Shown here one piece after another: positions 46,043 to 54,301 of a DNA stretch of 54,301 nt. The stretch is from the NCBI GenBank assembly GCA_024711125.1, contig JANJTM010000060.1, positions 1 to 54,301 on the forward strand. The letters run 5' to 3'. This stretch comes from Rhodothermales bacterium (GTDB taxonomy: Bacteria; Bacteroidota; Rhodothermia; Rhodothermales; UBA10348). The notes under the pieces are model-generated. The model did not search any database. It had not been told where the DNA came from and was given only the letters and a program-made list of their open reading frames with translations. A program made the translations under genes and the position numbers. The number at the start of each line of letters is the position of its first letter. The stretch's first letter is position 1.

Positions 46043-47701
46043 TCAACCCTCCCGGTTGAGTCGCGCGGCCTCGTCGACCAGGCGCAGGAACTCTGCGCGC
46101 CAGCCGTGCGCATCGCGGCCGAGGGCGCCGGATGCCCATCGGTGCACGTCGGCCAGCGTGGCGTCGCCGCGGAATTCCGAACCGCGCAGGATCATGCCGA
46201 ACGCGGCTACGGAGGCCGAGAACCGGAAATCTTCGCTGGTGTCGGCGAACCGCTCGATGCCGAGCGCCGGAACCGGGGTCTCGAGCAGGCGGCTGCGGTC
46301 TCCGCCGGGATCCTTGTAGCGGAGCGCGAGGTGCATGAGTTCACCCGAGGCGGCGGCGGACGTGAGGCTCCCGGACCGGTACCGAAGGTCGCCTGCCGAC
46401 GATACGACTGTCGTCGACCGGCTTCCGACCGGGATGATCTCGTAGAGCGCCGTGACCGAGTGACCCGCACCGAGTTCGCCCGCGTCCTTGCGGTCGTCGG
46501 AGAAATCCTCGGGAGCCAGGAGACGGTTCTCGTAGCCGATCAGGCGATAGGCCTCGACCAGGGCCGGATTGAACTCGATCTGCAGCTTGACGTCCTTCGC
46601 GATCGTGTGCAGTGTGCCTCCGAGTTCCGAAACGAGCACCTTGCGCGCCTCGAGTTCCGAGTCGATGTAGTAGTAGTTGCCGTTGCCGTGGTCGGCGAGC
46701 AGCTCCATCTTGTTGTCCTTGATGTTGCCGGTCCCGAAGCCCAACACCGTCAGGAAAACGCCGGATTTGCGCTCCGATTCGATGATCTGCAGCAGTTCGG
46801 CATCGGAAGAGACCCCCACGTTGAAGTCGCCGTCGGTGGCGAGGACCACGCGGTTGATCCCGCCCTGCGTGAACCCGCGGCGCGCGGTTTCGTAGGCGAG
46901 ACGGATGCCGTCGGCTCCCGCGGTCGATCCTCCCGCCTGCAGGCGTTCCAGGGCCGCCAGTATGGCCTCGGACCGGTCACCGCGCGTCGGTTCCAGCACG
47001 AGACCGGCCGCCCCCGCGTACACCACGATCGAGACACGATCGTTTTCCGACAGTTCTCCGGCGAGCATGCGGAAGGCCTTCTTCAGCAACGGAAGCTTGT
47101 CCGGCTCGTCCATCGATCCCGAGACGTCGAGCAGGAAGACGAGGTTCGACGCCGGCCGCCCCGCCAGGTCCATCCGCCGACCCTGGAGGCCGACGTGCAC
47201 GAGCCGGTGGGCAGGGTTCCACGGAGCCGGTCCCGTTTCGGTTACGATCGCGAACGGCGCGCTCCCCTCCGGATCGGGGTAATCGTAATCGAAATAGTTG
47301 ACGAGTTCCTCGATGCGCACGGCGTCCTTCGGGGGCGCCATTCCGTCCCGGATGAAGCGTCTCACGTTGGCGTAGGACGCTGCGTCCACGTCTATCGAAA
47401 AGGTGGAAAGCGGGTGGTCGGTCACCCGGCGAAATCCGGATTCGGCGATCGGGGCGTAGTCCTCGGTGTTCCACGCGGGCTGCCCGGGGTGCCCTGCGAC
47501 GCCCAACGCCTTCGACCCGACCCGAGAGGAGGCGGCGGGCTCACGCGAGACCGCGAATTCGTCCAGGACGGAAGCCGCGTTGCCTCCCGCGTCGTCGGGG
47601 ATACGGGCGGATCGATCGTTGTCGGGCCGGGTCTGGACGCACCCGATGAAGAGGGTCGCGAGGGCGAATCCGGCGAGAATCGGGCGCAGCGTGCGTGGCA
47701 T
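46043..47701 (-). CDS. VWA-domain lipoprotein (YfbK type)
   Basis: A 552-residue lipoprotein (signal ending LATLFIGC). An N-terminal vWF_A-linked domain (STFSIDVDAASYANVRRFI, RIEELVNYFDYDYP) is followed by a VWA domain with the metal-ion-dependent adhesion site LLDVSGSMDEP (D192, S194, S196) and VVLATDGDFNVG. The C terminus is DUF3520 (TALYEIIPVG, MHLALRYKDPGG, RFSASVAAFGMILRGSEF). The family is widespread and probably mediates protein contacts in the cell envelope. Nothing nearby identifies its partner. Confidence 0.93.
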   Translation of the reverse strand: MPRTLRPILAGFALATLFIGCVQTRPDNDRSARIPDDAGGNAASVLDEFAVSREPAASSRVGSKALGVAGHPGQPAWNTEDYAPIAESGFRRVTDHPLSTFSIDVDAASYANVRRFIRDGMAPPKDAVRIEELVNYFDYDYPDPEGSAPFAIVTETGPAPWNPAHRLVHVGLQGRRMDLAGRPASNLVFLLDVSGSMDEPDKLPLLKKAFRMLAGELSENDRVSIVVYAGAAGLVLEPTRGDRSEAILAALERLQAGGSTAGADGIRLAYETARRGFTQGGINRVVLATDGDFNVGVSSDAELLQIIESERKSGVFLTVLGFGTGNIKDNKMELLADHGNGNYYYIDSELEARKVLVSELGGTLHTIAKDVKLQIEFNPALVEAYRLIGYENRLLAPEDFSDDRKDAGELGAGHSVTALYEIIPVGSRSTTVVSSAGDLRYRSGSLTSAAASGELMHLALRYKDPGGDRSRLLETPVPALGIERFADTSEDFRFSASVAAFGMILRGSEFRGDATLADVHRWASGALGRDAHGWRAEFLRLVDEAARLNREG

Positions 47702-47852: not shown

Positions 47853-48884
47853 TCAGGGAGACAGGCCCCGGGGCCGGCCGTCGACGATTTCGGTTCGTGC
47901 CCGTTCGAGGAATCGCTTTCGGGTGAGCCTCACGACGTACTCGAACCGGGTGCGGTGCCGGGCCCGGTATTCGCAGGGAGTGAGTCCGGGCAGGTGGCGG
48001 GACAGCGCCTCGAAATGGGTCTGCCCTCCATGGGGGGTGACGGAAGAGACCACCACGTCCGCGGCACCGGCACGGTAGGCGGCCTCGAGGTCCGGGTCCC
48101 CGGTTGCCGATCGCGGCTCGGGCCTCCCGACCACCGCTGCAGCGAGCCGGACCGCGTCTGTCGGCTCGGGCTCCTCGAACGCGGATTCCCGCAACGGCAC
48201 GGAACCACGCACGATGGACGCCCGCAGGCAGATCGCCGCGGTCACGATCGGCACGCGAGGTTCGAATTCCGGAAGCGCACGCAGGGTCTCGACCACGTTG
48301 CGCAGCAGGTCCCGGGCACGCAACGAAGTCGCGGCGCCGCAGAGCAGCGCCTCGAAGACCTCGAACGGGATCTCCGGCCGCCGCCGACCGCCTTCCTCTG
48401 CCAGCCGAATCCACAGGAGCCCCCGGGATCGTACCACCCGCGTGTCGGAGCTCGCGGCCGCGGCTCGCTTGAGTCCCCGGATCACGCGGGCCAGCGAGGG
48501 ATCCGATTCCTGCAATTGGCGAAACAACCCGTCGTCGACCTTTCGTGCCACCATGCGCCGCACTTCGGCGAACAGGGTGGCAGGGTCCATCATGGCAGCG
48601 GCGGCCGGGTCGATGCGACGACGCAGCTCTACGAATCGGCCGCGCGGGTCCCTGCGGAACAGGTCCGCGATGCACTCCAGGGCCAGGTCGTTCTCGGTGA
48701 GCGGCGACACGTGGTAGCGGAACGAGTGCCGTCGGTCGCGCAGGCGAAGGTAGACAACCGCCACGCGCACCATCTCGTGTACGACCTGCTCCACGGATTG
48801 ACGTCCGGGGCTTTCGGAAAGCGTATCGAGCAGCGCTGCACGAAGTCCTGCACGCGGAGCGGGGCCGGGTGGGTGATCGAACAT
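47853..48884 (-). CDS. Hypothetical cytoplasmic protein with C-terminal HTH-like end
   Basis: A 343-residue protein from the ATG at 48884 (MFDHPPGPAPRAGLRAALLD). It has no signal or membrane segment and is rich in arginine and leucine. YHVSPLTENDLALECIADLFRRDPRG and the RMVARKVDDGLFRQL region look like helical regulatory segments. The end (THFEALSRHLPGLTPCEYRARHRTRFEYVVRL) loosely recalls the last helices of AraC-type DNA-binding domains or sigma region 4, but the match is not complete. I assign no function. It is divergent from the Kelch-TM gene and shares a 327-base intergenic region with it. Confidence 0.65.
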   Translation of the reverse strand: MFDHPPGPAPRAGLRAALLDTLSESPGRQSVEQVVHEMVRVAVVYLRLRDRRHSFRYHVSPLTENDLALECIADLFRRDPRGRFVELRRRIDPAAAAMMDPATLFAEVRRMVARKVDDGLFRQLQESDPSLARVIRGLKRAAAASSDTRVVRSRGLLWIRLAEEGGRRRPEIPFEVFEALLCGAATSLRARDLLRNVVETLRALPEFEPRVPIVTAAICLRASIVRGSVPLRESAFEEPEPTDAVRLAAAVVGRPEPRSATGDPDLEAAYRAGAADVVVSSVTPHGGQTHFEALSRHLPGLTPCEYRARHRTRFEYVVRLTRKRFLERARTEIVDGRPRGLSP

Positions 48885-49211
48885 GGCGGTGGGATGCCGG
48901 CACCGTGCATGGCGGCCGCGGCCTGGTTCCGCGGTCCCGGCAGGGTTGGCCGGCTGCGGGGAGTATCGCGGCAAGCGGTGAATCCTCCTGCCCGGCATTC
49001 CCCTACGTGAGTGGGTAACAATTCGAAACAGCGGTCTCGCGCCGGCCGATGCGACGGGTGTTTCGAGATTGTTTCGGGAATCCGGTCCGACGGAAATTGC
49101 TCGTTTCGGGGATGCGGGGGGGCTTTTCTGCCGGGCGGGTCCGCGATACCTTCGATCGGGCCCGATCCTGCGGGTCCGTGATCGACAGCCCGCGGCCTTG
49201 CCCTCTCGTCC
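48885..49211. promoter_or_regulatory. 327-base divergent control region with CGAAAC/GTTTCG motifs
   Basis: Between the two divergent genes there are four copies of one 6-base word: CGAAAC at 49024-49029 and GTTTCG at 49060-49065, 49071-49076 and 49103-49108. The middle two are 11 bases apart, one helical turn. TACCTTCG at 49147-49154 could be the promoter -7 box for the plus-strand gene. No coding frame or RNA is evident. Confidence 0.45.
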
Positions 49212-50774
49212 GTGACACGTCCGCTTCCGTTCGTTCTCGCGGCGTTCCTGCTCGCCGTTGCGCCGCCGGCCGAGGCCCAGGCGCCGCTCTGCGTGCACCA
49301 CCAGGTGGGTTGTTCGCCGGAAACGGGCAACATACCCGAGCTCGGCACGCCGGTCGGCACCCACGGGACGTCACGTGTCTATATCGCCGACGACCGTGTG
49401 CGCATCGTCGACCTGGAAACCCTCGCGGTTCGCGAAATCCCCCTCCAACCGTTCGTCCACCTGTGGGACAGCCTGACCGTTCCGCTGCGTTCGATGGGCG
49501 TCGGAGGTCCAGGCCCGTCGGCCTGGATCTGGGACGCCAGCGGGGGCACCCCGATGCGACTACCCCTTCGGGAAGGGGAGCGGGCGCACGTCTATCCCCG
49601 GCGAAGCTGGTACGCGCTCTTCGGCCACGCGCCCGGAATCCGGCCGGAAACAGGAAATCCGGTGCTCTACGGCGGATACGGATACTACCGGGCGCAGGAC
49701 TTCCTGCTGGAGTTCGACCCGGAGGCAGACACGTGGCGAGAACTCCCCGCCCGCTTCGGATCGCCCACGCCCGGGCCGAGGAACGCGGCCTGGCTGCTGA
49801 CCGGGTGGGACGCCCGACGCATCCTCCTGTTGGGCGGGAGCGTCGCCCTGTCCGGCCAATCCCCTCCGGTGTATTCCGAGGAACTCCGGGACGCATGGGT
49901 ATACGATCCCGCCGACAGCACGTGGAGCGAGATCGATGTCGATCCGGGCCTGGTCTGCTCCCTGAAGCAGTGGATCTACACCAAGGTTTCGGTCGCGACG
50001 CATCCATCCACCGGATCCGTGGCATTTCCGGTTACCTGCCCAACGGCAGCGTTCCCGGATCGGACCGTGGTCCAGTGGAGGCCGCTCGCCGGTACCGTCG
50101 ACGTGCTCGGGGTGCTGCCACGGGATTTTGCGCTGCAGCAGGTTCCCCTCGGCACGTACATCGTGCCGGGCTCTGACAGCGTCACCGCGATGTTCTGGCA
50201 GGTGCGTCGCGGTCGCCCGCCCGTCGAGTGGACCGTCCATCGATTCCGCTTTCCGCTGCGAGCCGAATACGGTCCGGCCGGAGCGGGGGACGGCACTTGG
50301 CCCGGTGTGTGGCTGCCTTGGCTGGCAGGTCTGTTTCTCGCGGCCGCTGCGGGCGCAATCGTCTTCGCGCGAAGGCGGCAACGCCTGCCCGAAGGAACCG
50401 GTCCCGACCGACGAGTGATCCAGGTGGAGGTCGCGGTGGGGCAGGGTACGATCCGACTCTCCGACGGGACCGGCGAACATCGCCTCGATCTGTCCGTCCA
50501 CGCCGCGGAGCTGTTGGCCTTCGTGGCGCGGCGTCAGGCGGACGTCGGGCAGATACTCGACGCGGAGGAGGTGAACGACCTGTTCCTGTCCCGCTACCGT
50601 GACCCGGACACGGCCCGAGTCACGAAGAACCGGGCGCTGGACCAGCTCAACGGGGCCTTCACGCGACGCTACGGAAGGCCTCTTCTCGAGCGGCGCCGAA
50701 GCCCGGCCGACCGGCGGCGGGTGGAGTACGTGATCCGATTCGCCCTCCGGGCCGGGTCGGGTCAGGACTGTTGA
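49212..50774 (+). CDS. Membrane one-component regulator candidate: Kelch-like sensor, one TM helix, winged-helix-like domain
   Basis: A 520-residue protein read from the GTG at 49212, with signal peptide to about residue 23 (APPAEAQ). The extracytoplasmic part (24-363) has Kelch-like blades, for example VLYGGYGYYRAQDFLLEFDPEADTWRELP and ILLLGGSVALSG with DAWVYDPADSTWSEI. One membrane helix follows (about 366-386, WLPWLAGLFLAAAAGAIVFA) and then RRRQR, which sets the C terminus in the cytoplasm. The last 100 residues (LDLSVHAAELLAFVARRQAD, then TKNRALDQLNGAFTRRYG and RRSPADRRRVEYVIRF) look like a winged helix. No kinase or receiver is present. Confidence 0.72.
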   Translation: MTRPLPFVLAAFLLAVAPPAEAQAPLCVHHQVGCSPETGNIPELGTPVGTHGTSRVYIADDRVRIVDLETLAVREIPLQPFVHLWDSLTVPLRSMGVGGPGPSAWIWDASGGTPMRLPLREGERAHVYPRRSWYALFGHAPGIRPETGNPVLYGGYGYYRAQDFLLEFDPEADTWRELPARFGSPTPGPRNAAWLLTGWDARRILLLGGSVALSGQSPPVYSEELRDAWVYDPADSTWSEIDVDPGLVCSLKQWIYTKVSVATHPSTGSVAFPVTCPTAAFPDRTVVQWRPLAGTVDVLGVLPRDFALQQVPLGTYIVPGSDSVTAMFWQVRRGRPPVEWTVHRFRFPLRAEYGPAGAGDGTWPGVWLPWLAGLFLAAAAGAIVFARRRQRLPEGTGPDRRVIQVEVAVGQGTIRLSDGTGEHRLDLSVHAAELLAFVARRQADVGQILDAEEVNDLFLSRYRDPDTARVTKNRALDQLNGAFTRRYGRPLLERRRSPADRRRVEYVIRFALRAGSGQDC

Positions 50775-52330
50775 AGCCGGTCGGGGCGCTGCTCCGGGTT
50801 TCGCGAACGCCTCGCATCAGGGGCCGAAGCGTGCCGTGCAGCGCCGGGCAGGAAGGTATTGAGCAGCGGTCCGAACCCCTGGACGGGATTCATGGACCGC
50901 ATGGTGTCGCGGATGACGAAGACCGTGCGCAGAGGCGGACGCTCGACGGGTTGGGTCACGCGGCCGAGGAGGAGCCAACCAAGGAAACGAAGCGCAAACC
51001 CGAGCACGAATAGTGCCTTCAAGCCCTCGAGGAAGGACCAACCGAAGATCGGAGCCGATGCCGTGAGCGCGGCGGCCACCGTGCCGCCCATGATCGGTCC
51101 GACCGCACCGGTCGCGCCCCCGGCGGCGGCCGCAAGCGCGAAATAGGAGGTCTTGCCCCGGTCAGGGGCAAGTCGCATGGTCAGATTGCCCGTGGCGAGC
51201 GTCAGCCCACCCCAGGCGAAGCCGCCCGTGATGCTGAGTACCGGCATCAGGTAGTACCCGGGACCGGACGCGGCGGTGAACAGCCACCAGACCGGCTGAA
51301 GCGCGACCGAAAGACCGGTCATGCGCATCACCTGGAGATCGCCGTGCCGGTCGCAGAGCGGGCCCCAGACGCGCTGGCCGAGGAGGTTCGACACGATTCC
51401 GCCCGCCGAAAACATCATCACGGACGCGACGCCCACTTCGACCTGGGTCAGCATGTAGACGGCGAAGAACGGGGCGACGAACCACACGCCGAAATTCCAG
51501 GCCCCGAGGTAGGCCAGGAAGGGTCGGAAGGTCCGGTCGGTGAGCGGCTCGCGGATATGGGCCGAGAATCCTCCCGGCAGCGATGCGGCGGGTTCGGGCT
51601 CGGGGTGGCGCGACAGGAAGTGGATCGATACCAGCCGGAACGCGATGCCCAGGCCGATGAGCGCGAGAAATACGGGAATCGGTTCCTCGGCCGCGCGCAC
51701 CGCATGGCCGGCCGTCGCCGCGGTGGCGGCTCCGAACGCGTTGCAGACGAAATTTCGGGTGCCGAAGAAACGTCCCCGAAGGCGATCCGGTACGAGGTCG
51801 CTGATCCAACTCGTCCATGCGGCCGTCGCGATCGCCGCGAAGGCCTGTTGCGCCAGCAGCACCACGAGCACCACCGTGAGTGCCTGCCCGGGCTCGAACC
51901 ACGCAACGGCCGCCAGCGTCGCGGCCCATGCCAGCGCGTCGACCGTGGACGAAACCAGGAGAACGTCCCGCCGCCATCCCCCCCGCCGGCGGATGATCTC
52001 GGCCCCGAGAGGTTGGGCGAGACCCCCGAGGAGAGGAAGGGAAGCCGCCAGGCCGACTTCGAACGAGCCGGCGCCGATCGCGACGAGAAAGGCCGTCAGG
52101 AACGGCCCGGCGGTGAGCGTCGAATACTGTACCGCGAAGACACCGTCCGAGATGCTGAGGCGCATCACGCGTCGCGTGTCCGGCGACGGATGGTCGTTTC
52201 GCGCGGGAGAGCGATCAGGTGCCCGCGAGGGGTCCGGCAACGGGATGTCGTCGATGGGTGGCACCCGAAAACGTAAGCGCCACCGCCGCCGAGGATCCCG
52301 ACCCCATGCCTGCAGGCTGGAATTTCGCAT
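50762..52330 (-). CDS. MFS transporter
   Basis: A 522-residue permease with about 12 membrane helices after an arginine/proline-rich N-terminal tail. LPLLGGLAQPLGAEIIRRRGG and WISDLVPDRLRGRFFGTRN are the conserved loops of the first half, and GPLCDRHGDLQVMRMTG those of the second. It is probably a drug or metabolite exporter, but the substrate is not shown. The tail (about residues 1-55) may not be translated: an ATG at 52165 (MRLSISDGVFAVQY) is an alternative start. Its end overlaps the Kelch-TM gene by 13 bases. It is divergent from tetR. Confidence 0.85.
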   Translation of the reverse strand: MRNSSLQAWGRDPRRRWRLRFRVPPIDDIPLPDPSRAPDRSPARNDHPSPDTRRVMRLSISDGVFAVQYSTLTAGPFLTAFLVAIGAGSFEVGLAASLPLLGGLAQPLGAEIIRRRGGWRRDVLLVSSTVDALAWAATLAAVAWFEPGQALTVVLVVLLAQQAFAAIATAAWTSWISDLVPDRLRGRFFGTRNFVCNAFGAATAATAGHAVRAAEEPIPVFLALIGLGIAFRLVSIHFLSRHPEPEPAASLPGGFSAHIREPLTDRTFRPFLAYLGAWNFGVWFVAPFFAVYMLTQVEVGVASVMMFSAGGIVSNLLGQRVWGPLCDRHGDLQVMRMTGLSVALQPVWWLFTAASGPGYYLMPVLSITGGFAWGGLTLATGNLTMRLAPDRGKTSYFALAAAAGGATGAVGPIMGGTVAAALTASAPIFGWSFLEGLKALFVLGFALRFLGWLLLGRVTQPVERPPLRTVFVIRDTMRSMNPVQGFGPLLNTFLPGAARHASAPDARRSRNPEQRPDRLQQS

Positions 52331-52383: not shown

Positions 52384-52453
52384 ATCGTAGACTCTCCACC
52401 GAACCCGCTGCCACAGCCCACCCGTGGACGAAACAGGACGTCGAAACGAGGAA

Positions 52454-53059
52454 ATGAACAAGGACGGCGACACCGAGGATCGGATCTTCGAGGCGGCCCA
52501 GGCCGCTTTCCACGAGCACGGCTTCGACGGGGCTCGCATGGCCGACATCGCGCGGCGGGCGTCGATCAACCAGTCGATGCTCCACTACTACTTCCGCACG
52601 AAGGAGCAGCTCTTCGACGCCGTCTTCAGAAAGGCCATCCTCGCGGTGTTGCCTCCTGCCATCGCGATCCTGGGGGAGGATGGGCCGCTCCTTGCCAAAC
52701 TCGAGCGCTTCGCGCACCGGTATGTGGGCATCCTGCAGGCAAATCCGCATATCCCGGCCTTCATCCTGTTCGAACTGCGTCGCAATCCCGAAGCGATCGG
52801 TCGCCTGGCCGGCGAAACGGCCGGTCCGGTCTTCGCGCGCTTCCGAGGTGACGTCGAGCGGGCCGTGCGCGAAGGCGACATCCGGCCGATCGAGCCGTCG
52901 CACCTGCTGGCGAACGTGGTCGGTCTGTGTGTCTTTCCGTTCGTTGCCCGACCCATGCTGCAGGGTGGTCTCGGCATGGGGAACGAGGCGTACGACGGCC
53001 TGCTGCGCACGCGCGCCGATCACGTCGCCGATTTCCTGCGCCACGCGCTACGCCCATGA
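52454..53059 (+). CDS. TetR-family transcriptional regulator
   Basis: A 201-residue repressor. The N-terminal helix-turn-helix is AAFHEHGFDGARMADIARRASINQSMLHYYFRTKEQLF (about 14-51), clear TetR type, followed by an all-helical ligand-binding domain. The ATG at 52454, preceded by GAGGAA, is preferred over an upstream GTG at 52424 that has no ribosome-binding site. The stop overlaps the tolC start by 4 bases (ATGA), so it likely controls its own efflux operon and perhaps the divergent MFS gene through the operator at 52351-52383. Confidence 0.94.
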   Translation: MNKDGDTEDRIFEAAQAAFHEHGFDGARMADIARRASINQSMLHYYFRTKEQLFDAVFRKAILAVLPPAIAILGEDGPLLAKLERFAHRYVGILQANPHIPAFILFELRRNPEAIGRLAGETAGPVFARFRGDVERAVREGDIRPIEPSHLLANVVGLCVFPFVARPMLQGGLGMGNEAYDGLLRTRADHVADFLRHALRP

Positions 53060-54301
53060 CGCCGATTCTCCTCCTCATCCTGCTCTCCCTGCCGCAGCCG
53101 GCCGACACCCTGCGGCTCGACCACGCCTACCGCGCCGCGGAAATGCGGTTTGCCCGCACGCGCGAGGTGGCGATCGCCGAACGGACCCTCGCGCTGCGGG
53201 AGAAGAACCTCGACACGCGCTTCCTTCCGACGCTGACGGCCTCCAGCCAGGCGACGTACGTGAGCGACGTGGCCGAGATCGGGATCTCCATGCCCGGTTT
53301 CACGCCCCCGGCGATCGCGAAGGACCAATACAAGGTCGCGATCACGGCCGAGCAGCTGGTCTACGACGGCGGTGCCACCGCCGCGCAGCGCGCCCTGGAG
53401 CGGGTGCAGGCGGCCTGGGCGGCGGGTGAAGTGGCCGTTGCGGCCTTCGCACTGCGGACGGAGGTGCACGCCGCGTGGTACGCCGCCCTCGCGGCCGAAG
53501 CCGAGGTGGCCGTGCTCTCGGTGCTGGAGGGGGAGCTGACCGCACGGCGGGACCAGGTCCTCGCGGCGTTCGCCCGCGGAGCCGCCACCCGGGCGCAGGC
53601 CGACGTGTTCGAGGCGGAACGCATCCGCGTGGTCCAGCAGCGCACCGCCGCCGGGGAACGCCGGCGAGGCGCCCTCGACGCCCTCGGGGAACTGACCGGC
53701 TGGGCCCTGCCCGATGCCGTCCGGCTTCCCACCGAGGCCGACCCGCCGGTCGCCGGGGACGGCGTGCGCCCCGAGTTCCGCCAGTTCGACCTGGCGAGGG
53801 AACGCCTCGATGCCCAGTCGCGGCTGCTGGCGCGGCGCTCCCGGCCCAGGGTAGGCGCGTTCGCCGACGTGGCGGCCGGCCGTCCGCAGGGCATGAACTT
53901 CTTCGAGGACGAGTTCGGGCCGTTCTTCTCGGTCGGCATCAAGGCGACCTGGACTCCCTGGGACTGGCACGCCACGGACCGCGACCGGGAGGCGGTCGCG
54001 CTGCAGGCCGAGGCCGTGGACGCGCAGGAAGAGGCCTTCAGGCAGGCCCTCCGCGTGCGCAGGGCACGACTGCTCCGCGACGCGGCGGCGCTGGAGCGCC
54101 AGCTGGAGGCCGACGCCGAACTCGTGGCGCTGCGCACGCGCATCACGGCCGACGCGGCCTCCCGCCTCGAGAACGCAACCCGGCCGCCCACCGAATTCCT
54201 GGTCGAACGAGGCAACCACGAACGCGCCGAGCTGGCCCAGCGCCAGCGGCGCATCCAGCTCGCCCTGGTGCGGGCCGCCCTCGAACTGCTGAACCCGAAC
54301 G
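53056..54301 (+). CDS. TolC-family outer membrane efflux protein, partial
   Basis: An open frame from the ATG at 53056 to the right edge without a stop, giving 415 residues. The N terminus MTPILLLILLSLPQPADTL is a short signal peptide. TolC features are the first-repeat start LRLDHAYRAAEMRFARTREVAIAE and coiled-coil helices such as ALRTEVHAAWYAALAAEAEVAVL. The second repeat starts near RPEFRQFDLARERLDAQSRLLARRSRP, with VGAFADVAAGRP as a barrel strand. TolC proteins form the outer-membrane channel of tripartite efflux pumps. The membrane-fusion and pump genes, if present, lie beyond the window. Confidence 0.92.
   Translation, partial: MTPILLLILLSLPQPADTLRLDHAYRAAEMRFARTREVAIAERTLALREKNLDTRFLPTLTASSQATYVSDVAEIGISMPGFTPPAIAKDQYKVAITAEQLVYDGGATAAQRALERVQAAWAAGEVAVAAFALRTEVHAAWYAALAAEAEVAVLSVLEGELTARRDQVLAAFARGAATRAQADVFEAERIRVVQQRTAAGERRRGALDALGELTGWALPDAVRLPTEADPPVAGDGVRPEFRQFDLARERLDAQSRLLARRSRPRVGAFADVAAGRPQGMNFFEDEFGPFFSVGIKATWTPWDWHATDRDREAVALQAEAVDAQEEAFRQALRVRRARLLRDAAALERQLEADAELVALRTRITADAASRLENATRPPTEFLVERGNHERAELAQRQRRIQLALVRAALELLNPN

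Follow-up and report, generated by a model that had tools for sequence, protein, structure and literature searches.

The locus and its neighbourhood

The window, by which we mean the whole stretch of 54,301 nucleotides analysed here, comes from a Rhodothermales bacterium and carries, at 49212-50774 on the forward strand, a gene with a GTG start that encodes a protein of 520 residues. The frame is seen in the sequence and has relatives, and it is present as a single copy in its own genome. It opens with a signal peptide (residues 1-23, 49212-49280), assigned by eye; hydropathy within the first 120 residues peaks at 1.58. After the signal peptide come the Kelch-type region, a single membrane helix and the C-terminal domain, all described below and all on the same strand. 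The initial annotation had read this same series, with Kelch-like blades, and the sequence, Pfam matches, hydropathy and structural models together uphold it. The gene is real and conserved, and it has no name in Pfam or NCBIfam.

An intergenic stretch (48885-49211) is common to the gene and a divergently oriented neighbour, and forms a putative operator region. We found no sigma-70-like promoter and no terminator in it. Its best direct repeat measures 15 nt at a spacing of 32 nt and was equalled in 13 of 60 dinucleotide shuffles, which is chance level; with no promoter beside it, we rejected this repeat as evidence of an operator.

The divergent neighbour (47856-48884, reverse strand) encodes a protein of 343 residues that Pfam does not recognise. 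Its family is found in seven of the 27 genomes of the host's taxonomic family, in up to three copies (G014), and has a second copy in the window's genome (L085). A homologue occupies the same position in one other genome (G006). The neighbour family is present without the Kelch gene in three of the seven genomes (G001, G013 and G014), the Kelch gene is present without the neighbour family in G024, and the two lie on separate contigs in G004; the contigs of G007 are too short to judge. As the two genes occur separately across the family, the neighbour was rejected as a dedicated partner. A protein of about 280 residues follows the neighbour homologue at two loci (L082 and L085), and our guess is that these two proteins form a sigma-like/anti-sigma-like pair.

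Further genes flank the locus. Downstream lie three unremarkable genes, for an MFS transporter (50762-52330, reverse strand), a TetR-type regulator (52424-53059, forward strand) and, to judge by eye, a probable TolC-type outer membrane efflux protein (52927-54300, forward strand), and on the far side of the divergent neighbour there is a YfbK-type von Willebrand factor A protein (46043-47701, reverse strand). At the Bacteroidia-type loci introduced below, the neighbours include a TonB-receptor-like protein, SurE, LpxB and a histidine kinase (L042 and one in L047 scanned).

Kelch-type sensor region

Residues 24-362 (49281-50297) constitute the predicted periplasmic sensor, assigned from Pfam Kelch matches and fold searches and modelled mostly at low confidence. 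The best-supported blades span residues 151-245 (49662-49946), on which Pfam, the AlphaFold model and the fold search all bear. Within them fall matches to Kelch_1 (22.9 bits, cut-off 20.1), Kelch_2 (22.5 bits, cut-off 21.3) and Kelch_3 (22.7 bits, cut-off 22), as well as a family signature, GGYGYYRA (residues 154-161, 49671-49694), which is conserved in the alignments and recurs as a GGYG-type core in the examined intact relatives.

The full-length AlphaFold model, built from the window protein and eight Balneolaceae-type relatives, has a mean pLDDT of 54.7. Ten-residue blocks of the Kelch core (141-240) range from 49 to 87, most of the Kelch region lies below 50, and the region is poor outside about 141-245; the blocks covering 401-510 reach 73-93 and the final block (511-520) reaches 60. 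Kelch domains dominate both fold-search lists of this model (for example TYW4, Z 12.8 over 99 residues). The Kelch-like sensor of the initial annotation thus stands as regards its motifs, which exceed the Pfam cut-offs; a closed propeller of six or seven blades is at most putative, with moderate model confidence confined to approximately residues 141-245.

The Kelch mutarotases NanM and YjhT are exported bacterial Kelch propellers; they differ from the present family in having neither a membrane helix nor a winged helix. Sub-threshold matches to the NanM or YjhT models appeared in one of 19 members scanned, and no such match is listed for the window protein in the Pfam and NCBIfam scans. These matches lend something to the reading that the Kelch domain is a periplasmic enzyme or scaffold, mutarotase-like or glycan-binding, with a cytoplasmic tail that merely anchors or tunes it. 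We regard this as very unlikely, however, for the tail is folded, conserved and kept across the family, and a plain anchor would need none of this.

In some Fodinibius/Aliifodinibius members (L034, L035/L030 and L038), the Kelch part is preceded by an additional N-terminal domain some 200 residues long. A weak OB-fold match, presumably in this extra domain, was recorded in one of the 19 members scanned.

Membrane helix and predicted topology

An AlphaFold helix and the hydropathy profile place the membrane helix at residues 363-389 (50298-50378), directly followed by RRRQR. The best hydropathy window covers residues 368-386 (mean 2.04), with six lysines or arginines in the 15 residues after the helix and none in the 14 before it. 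Among 31 members, the top-scoring 19-residue hydrophobic stretch in the second half of the protein has a mean hydropathy of 1.5-3.1 and ends about 90-175 residues before the C-terminus; lysine and arginine are commoner after the helix than before it in 25 of these members and not so in the other six. From the leading signal peptide, the hydropathy and this charge distribution, the Kelch part is predicted to be periplasmic and the C-terminal part cytoplasmic, the latter being where the initial annotation had put it.

The linker between the membrane helix and the C-terminal domain is arginine-rich and about 10 residues long. A protease might cut this linker or the helix, so that the regulator would act only once its C-terminal fragment is freed to reach DNA. 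Beyond the linker itself nothing specific speaks for such release, and single-pass regulators are reported to act from the membrane (PMC10269533); we regard this alternative as very unlikely.

Fold of the C-terminal domain

The C-terminal domain, predicted to be cytoplasmic, occupies residues 400-516 (50409-50759) and shows, in the models and by fold search, the order bbb-a-b-a-a-bb(b). Its third, recognition-type helix spans residues 465-487 (50604-50672) in the models and contains RALDQLNGAFTRRYG; the modelled wing hairpin spans residues 492-508 (50685-50735) and contains RRRVEYVIRF, both stretches having been quoted in the initial annotation. In both sequence and model, the protein ends 12 residues past the hairpin, with one short strand there. 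Modelled alone with seven relatives, the domain attains a pLDDT of 83.1 and a pTM of 0.77, with strands at 9-15, 20-24 and 29-33, a helix at 36-52, a strand at 55-57, helices at 58-66 and 72-94, and strands at 99-103, 111-115 and 118-121 (model numbering). This is the secondary-structure order of OmpR/PhoB with three strands in front, and the winged-helix fold is well supported by the models. The leading sheet is modelled in the window protein and can also be made out by eye in L021, L029 and L041.

The rows that VIA-align lists for the model include BaeR (Z 9.6, rmsd 2.8, 96 residues), the CadC DNA-binding domain (Z 8.9, rmsd 2.8, 97 residues), AdeR (Z 8.3, rmsd 3.2, 94 residues), ToxR on ompU DNA (Z 8.1, rmsd 3.4, 102 residues), SaeR (Z 7.9) and a TcpP activation complex chain (Z 7.2, rmsd 3.3, 94 residues). 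Interspersed among these transcription factors are a cohesin head module (Z 8.1) and JetABC (Z 7.9), whose winged helices we take not to be transcription factors. On this scale rows within one Z unit are tied and a Z near 8 is modest; the fold therefore has good support, the function less. The winged-helix look noted in the initial annotation accordingly reappears as a predicted OmpR/PhoB-type winged helix, with CadC and ToxR among the best matches, and structure prediction did not return a different fold, the outcome that would have counted against that reading.

Pfam has no match in the window protein after the membrane helix, no NCBIfam model scored above its cut-off for the C-terminal domain, and Trans_reg_C (PF00486) was unmatched at E values up to 1 in the window protein and in the 19 members scanned. 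Foldseek of the C-terminal model against the PDB gave no match within E 0.001, the best standing at E 0.034; many of its rows are MarR-type winged helices and others are unrelated. In hhalign comparisons with domains from its own genome, the C-terminal profile reached 49% (best, 33 columns), 15% and 1.3% against five OmpR-type domains, and 0.4% against three MarR-type domains, a weak control in which one domain lies under its family cut-off. C-terminal profiles found no PDB sequence under E 0.02. The hhalign and PDB sequence comparisons being weak or null, a proof of the winged helix from sequence was dropped.

The wing motif

Two columns, an aspartate and an arginine, are invariant across all 23 aligned C-termini, and they are the only ones. 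In the window protein they are Asp500 and Arg502, the outer residues of the wing D-x-R formed with Arg501 (50709-50717). A loose pattern finds D-x-R in all 25 C-termini of 20 further regions, two of which duplicate earlier loci (L128 is the DNA of L041, and L141 that of L039). In the recognition-type helix, R469, N473, A475 and N480 are invariant among the seven sequences of the window's own family (f1).

The wing has a parallel among MarR proteins. Searching the PDB with the profile of the 23 C-termini retrieved 22 sequences at E values up to 10, none of them under 0.02. Of these, 18 were classed as MarR-type, in part from their names (such as MexR, OhrR, MgrA, ZitR and FabT). The MarR-type sequences match the wing-bearing end of the profile, and in the two MarR-type alignments printed, D-x-R stands opposite D-x-R. 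In the DNA complex of the MarR protein SCO3205, Arg98 is described as entering the minor groove, presented by Asp96 (PMC3737563), and a minor-groove arginine contact has been proposed to be generic for MarR proteins (PMC2650471). By this parallel, the most constant residues of the family would be those that a DNA-reading wing needs.

Other observations bear on a different use of the domain. The five intact members of a Bacteroidia-type branch (L042-L045 and L047) all lack the D-x-R, and their C-termini are homologous to those of the other members (hhalign 88%, 62 columns). The domain has a pI of 9.6 in the window protein and is acidic, with a pI under 7, in 14 of 31 members. The missing wing motif and the acidic C-termini, along with the nearby ranks of JetABC and the cohesin head module, speak for a protein-interaction module. 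Instead of reading DNA, it would pass the signal of the Kelch sensor to RNA polymerase, a sigma-like factor, a kinase or another partner in the cytoplasm. Against it, all the other examined members have the D-x-R wing, like the DNA-contacting wings of MarR proteins, and CadC and ToxR are among the best structural matches; we judge this reading rather unlikely and favour a DNA-binding role.

Distribution and conservation

All genome counts given here include the window's own genome. A search with the single protein found matches in five of the 27 genomes in its taxonomic family, with two copies each in G006 and G007. The seven same-family sequences align over their full length and are 24-31% identical to the window protein; since the C-terminal domain is in addition conserved far more widely, the architecture lies beyond chance. 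A profile of these seven sequences had matches in 17 of the 394 genomes searched in the phylum.

A single-protein search of genome contigs gave no match, and a scan of named genomes yielded 14 loci. Eight are Balneolaceae-type (Fodinibius/Aliifodinibius, Gracilimonas, Balneola and Balneolaceae MAGs) and include duplicates, the proteins of L035, L037 and L040 being those of L030, L025 and L019; the other six are labelled Flavobacteriales (two), Bacteroidia (two), Bacteroidetes or Bacteroidota. The three shared proteins show family f18 to be Balneolaceae-like, from which the class is probably Rhodothermia and the phylum Bacteroidota as GTDB uses these names. Gracilimonas amylolytica LA399 and Fodinibius sediminis DSM 21194 are named strains with relatives.

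The C-terminal domain was also searched alone to see whether other sensors precede it. At E 0.001, one profile (A10) had matches in 15 of the 394 genomes. Three of these genomes (G215, G252 and G383) lie outside the class, and in the four frames from them a Kelch core of the GGYGxW form is accompanied by a membrane helix, though the query contained no Kelch sequence. The profile of the 23 C-termini (A13) gave 48 matches at E 1e-5, spread over 28 of the 244 genomes in the class. Across the phylum, the C-terminal-domain search reached 37 of 394 genomes at E 0.01, of which the 18 with a best E under 1e-5 were taken as family. The remaining 19 (best E 3.1e-4 to 9.2e-3) are mostly partial matches in short frames, and we would guess that they are MarR-type proteins.

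From the 48 A13 matches, 20 further regions were fetched, leaving out G466 (two) and G467 (one). They contain 25 C-terminal matches, of which 19 are in frame with a Kelch core by pattern and one (L126) has a core recognisable by eye, GGAGEF. At L130 the core lies in another frame just upstream of the C-terminal match, so the gene is broken there, and the last four frames are cut by contig ends. In every examined intact frame the C-terminal domain is preceded by a Kelch core and then a membrane helix, and among the frames examined no intact example joins this domain to another sensor. The recurrence of the domain order, for which the initial annotation had suggested a search, thus extends through the class and elsewhere in the phylum.

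Comparison with known systems

CadC, ToxR and TcpP are single-pass proteins with a periplasmic sensor and a cytoplasmic OmpR-type winged helix, features that are predicted for the Kelch family as well. In those proteins, however, the DNA-binding domain precedes the membrane helix and the sensor is C-terminal, whereas here the sensor comes first and the winged helix last, the sensor is of Kelch type, and Trans_reg_C finds no match. Given the missing Trans_reg_C match and the reversed order, the Kelch family is most likely CadC/ToxR-like in its working and outside that family. With MarR proteins it shares the Asp-x-Arg pair of the wing, which in a MarR protein-DNA structure places its arginine in the minor groove; unlike them, it is membrane-anchored and lacks the post-wing helices that form the MarR dimerisation arm.

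Accounts of sensing in the host group centre mostly on two-component hybrids and anti-sigma systems. The Y_Y_Y transmembrane regulators of Bacteroidota, which often bear Reg_prop propellers, also combine an extracytoplasmic sensor and a cytoplasmic output in one chain. The Kelch family differs from them in that Pfam scans of the window protein and 19 members found no Y_Y_Y, kinase, receiver, LuxR or AraC-type domain.

In its modelled form the Kelch family falls within the wide group of transmembrane transcription regulators (Demey et al. 2023, PMC10269533): a membrane helix is present, and the predicted winged helix, with transcription factors among its best matches, is a candidate DNA-binding domain, although no curated DNA-binding model matches the window protein. 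About 56% of that class are reported to be single-pass and 7.7% to contain Y_Y_Y (PMC10269533). The words kelch and propeller are absent from the main text of the same paper (PMC10269533), and we found no description of the Kelch-membrane helix-winged-helix architecture in open-access literature, as judged by titles and the beginnings of abstracts.

Proposed mechanism and significance

We consider it likely, on the strength of the models, that the protein is a membrane-anchored one-component transcription regulator, in the outline first proposed for it: the initial annotation had read such a regulator in the spirit of CadC and ToxR with the reverse domain order, and the predicted fold, the topology and the recurring order support it. 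The Kelch domain would bind a periplasmic ligand or partner protein, and binding may change how the protein oligomerises or how the membrane helix stands, a change that the helix would pass to the cytoplasm. The winged helices, to judge from their fold and wing, could thereupon come together in pairs on an operator close to the membrane, helix 465-487 entering the major groove and Arg502, oriented by Asp500, the minor groove. Transcription would change without a kinase, a receiver or phosphorylation; no phosphotransfer is proposed because the Pfam scan found neither a kinase nor a receiver domain.

How a protein fixed in the membrane finds its operator is an open question for membrane-anchored regulators. 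The Kelch family provides a recurring set in which a Kelch-type sensor is used and the order is opposite to that of the well-studied CadC, ToxR and TcpP, and its output domain, at about 90-120 residues, is compact and could lend itself to purification. If the proposal is true, proteins that curated models do not recognise become candidate regulators, and a new, testable set of one-protein switches is gained.

Copy number within genomes

Pairs of A13 matches within 5 kb on one contig were found in G312, G472, G507, G510 and G518. G507, a fragmented assembly listed as 7% contaminated, has eight C-terminal matches, and an expansion to eight matches in one genome accords with varied input. We lean, by a modest degree, towards a broader proposal: a family of one-component switches spread across the phylum, each with a periplasmic GGYGxW Kelch propeller and a winged helix of its own family, OmpR-like in fold with a MarR-type minor-groove wing, in which local expansions suggest a different envelope or surface ligand for each copy.

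Three genomes of one genus (g64: G504, G507 and G508) carry 3-8 matches each, with neighbouring pairs in G507. At L057 (G312:C8, about 258000-262000), two copies of the Kelch-membrane helix-winged-helix unit lie in a single frame of 1223 residues, which may represent either a fusion or an internal start.
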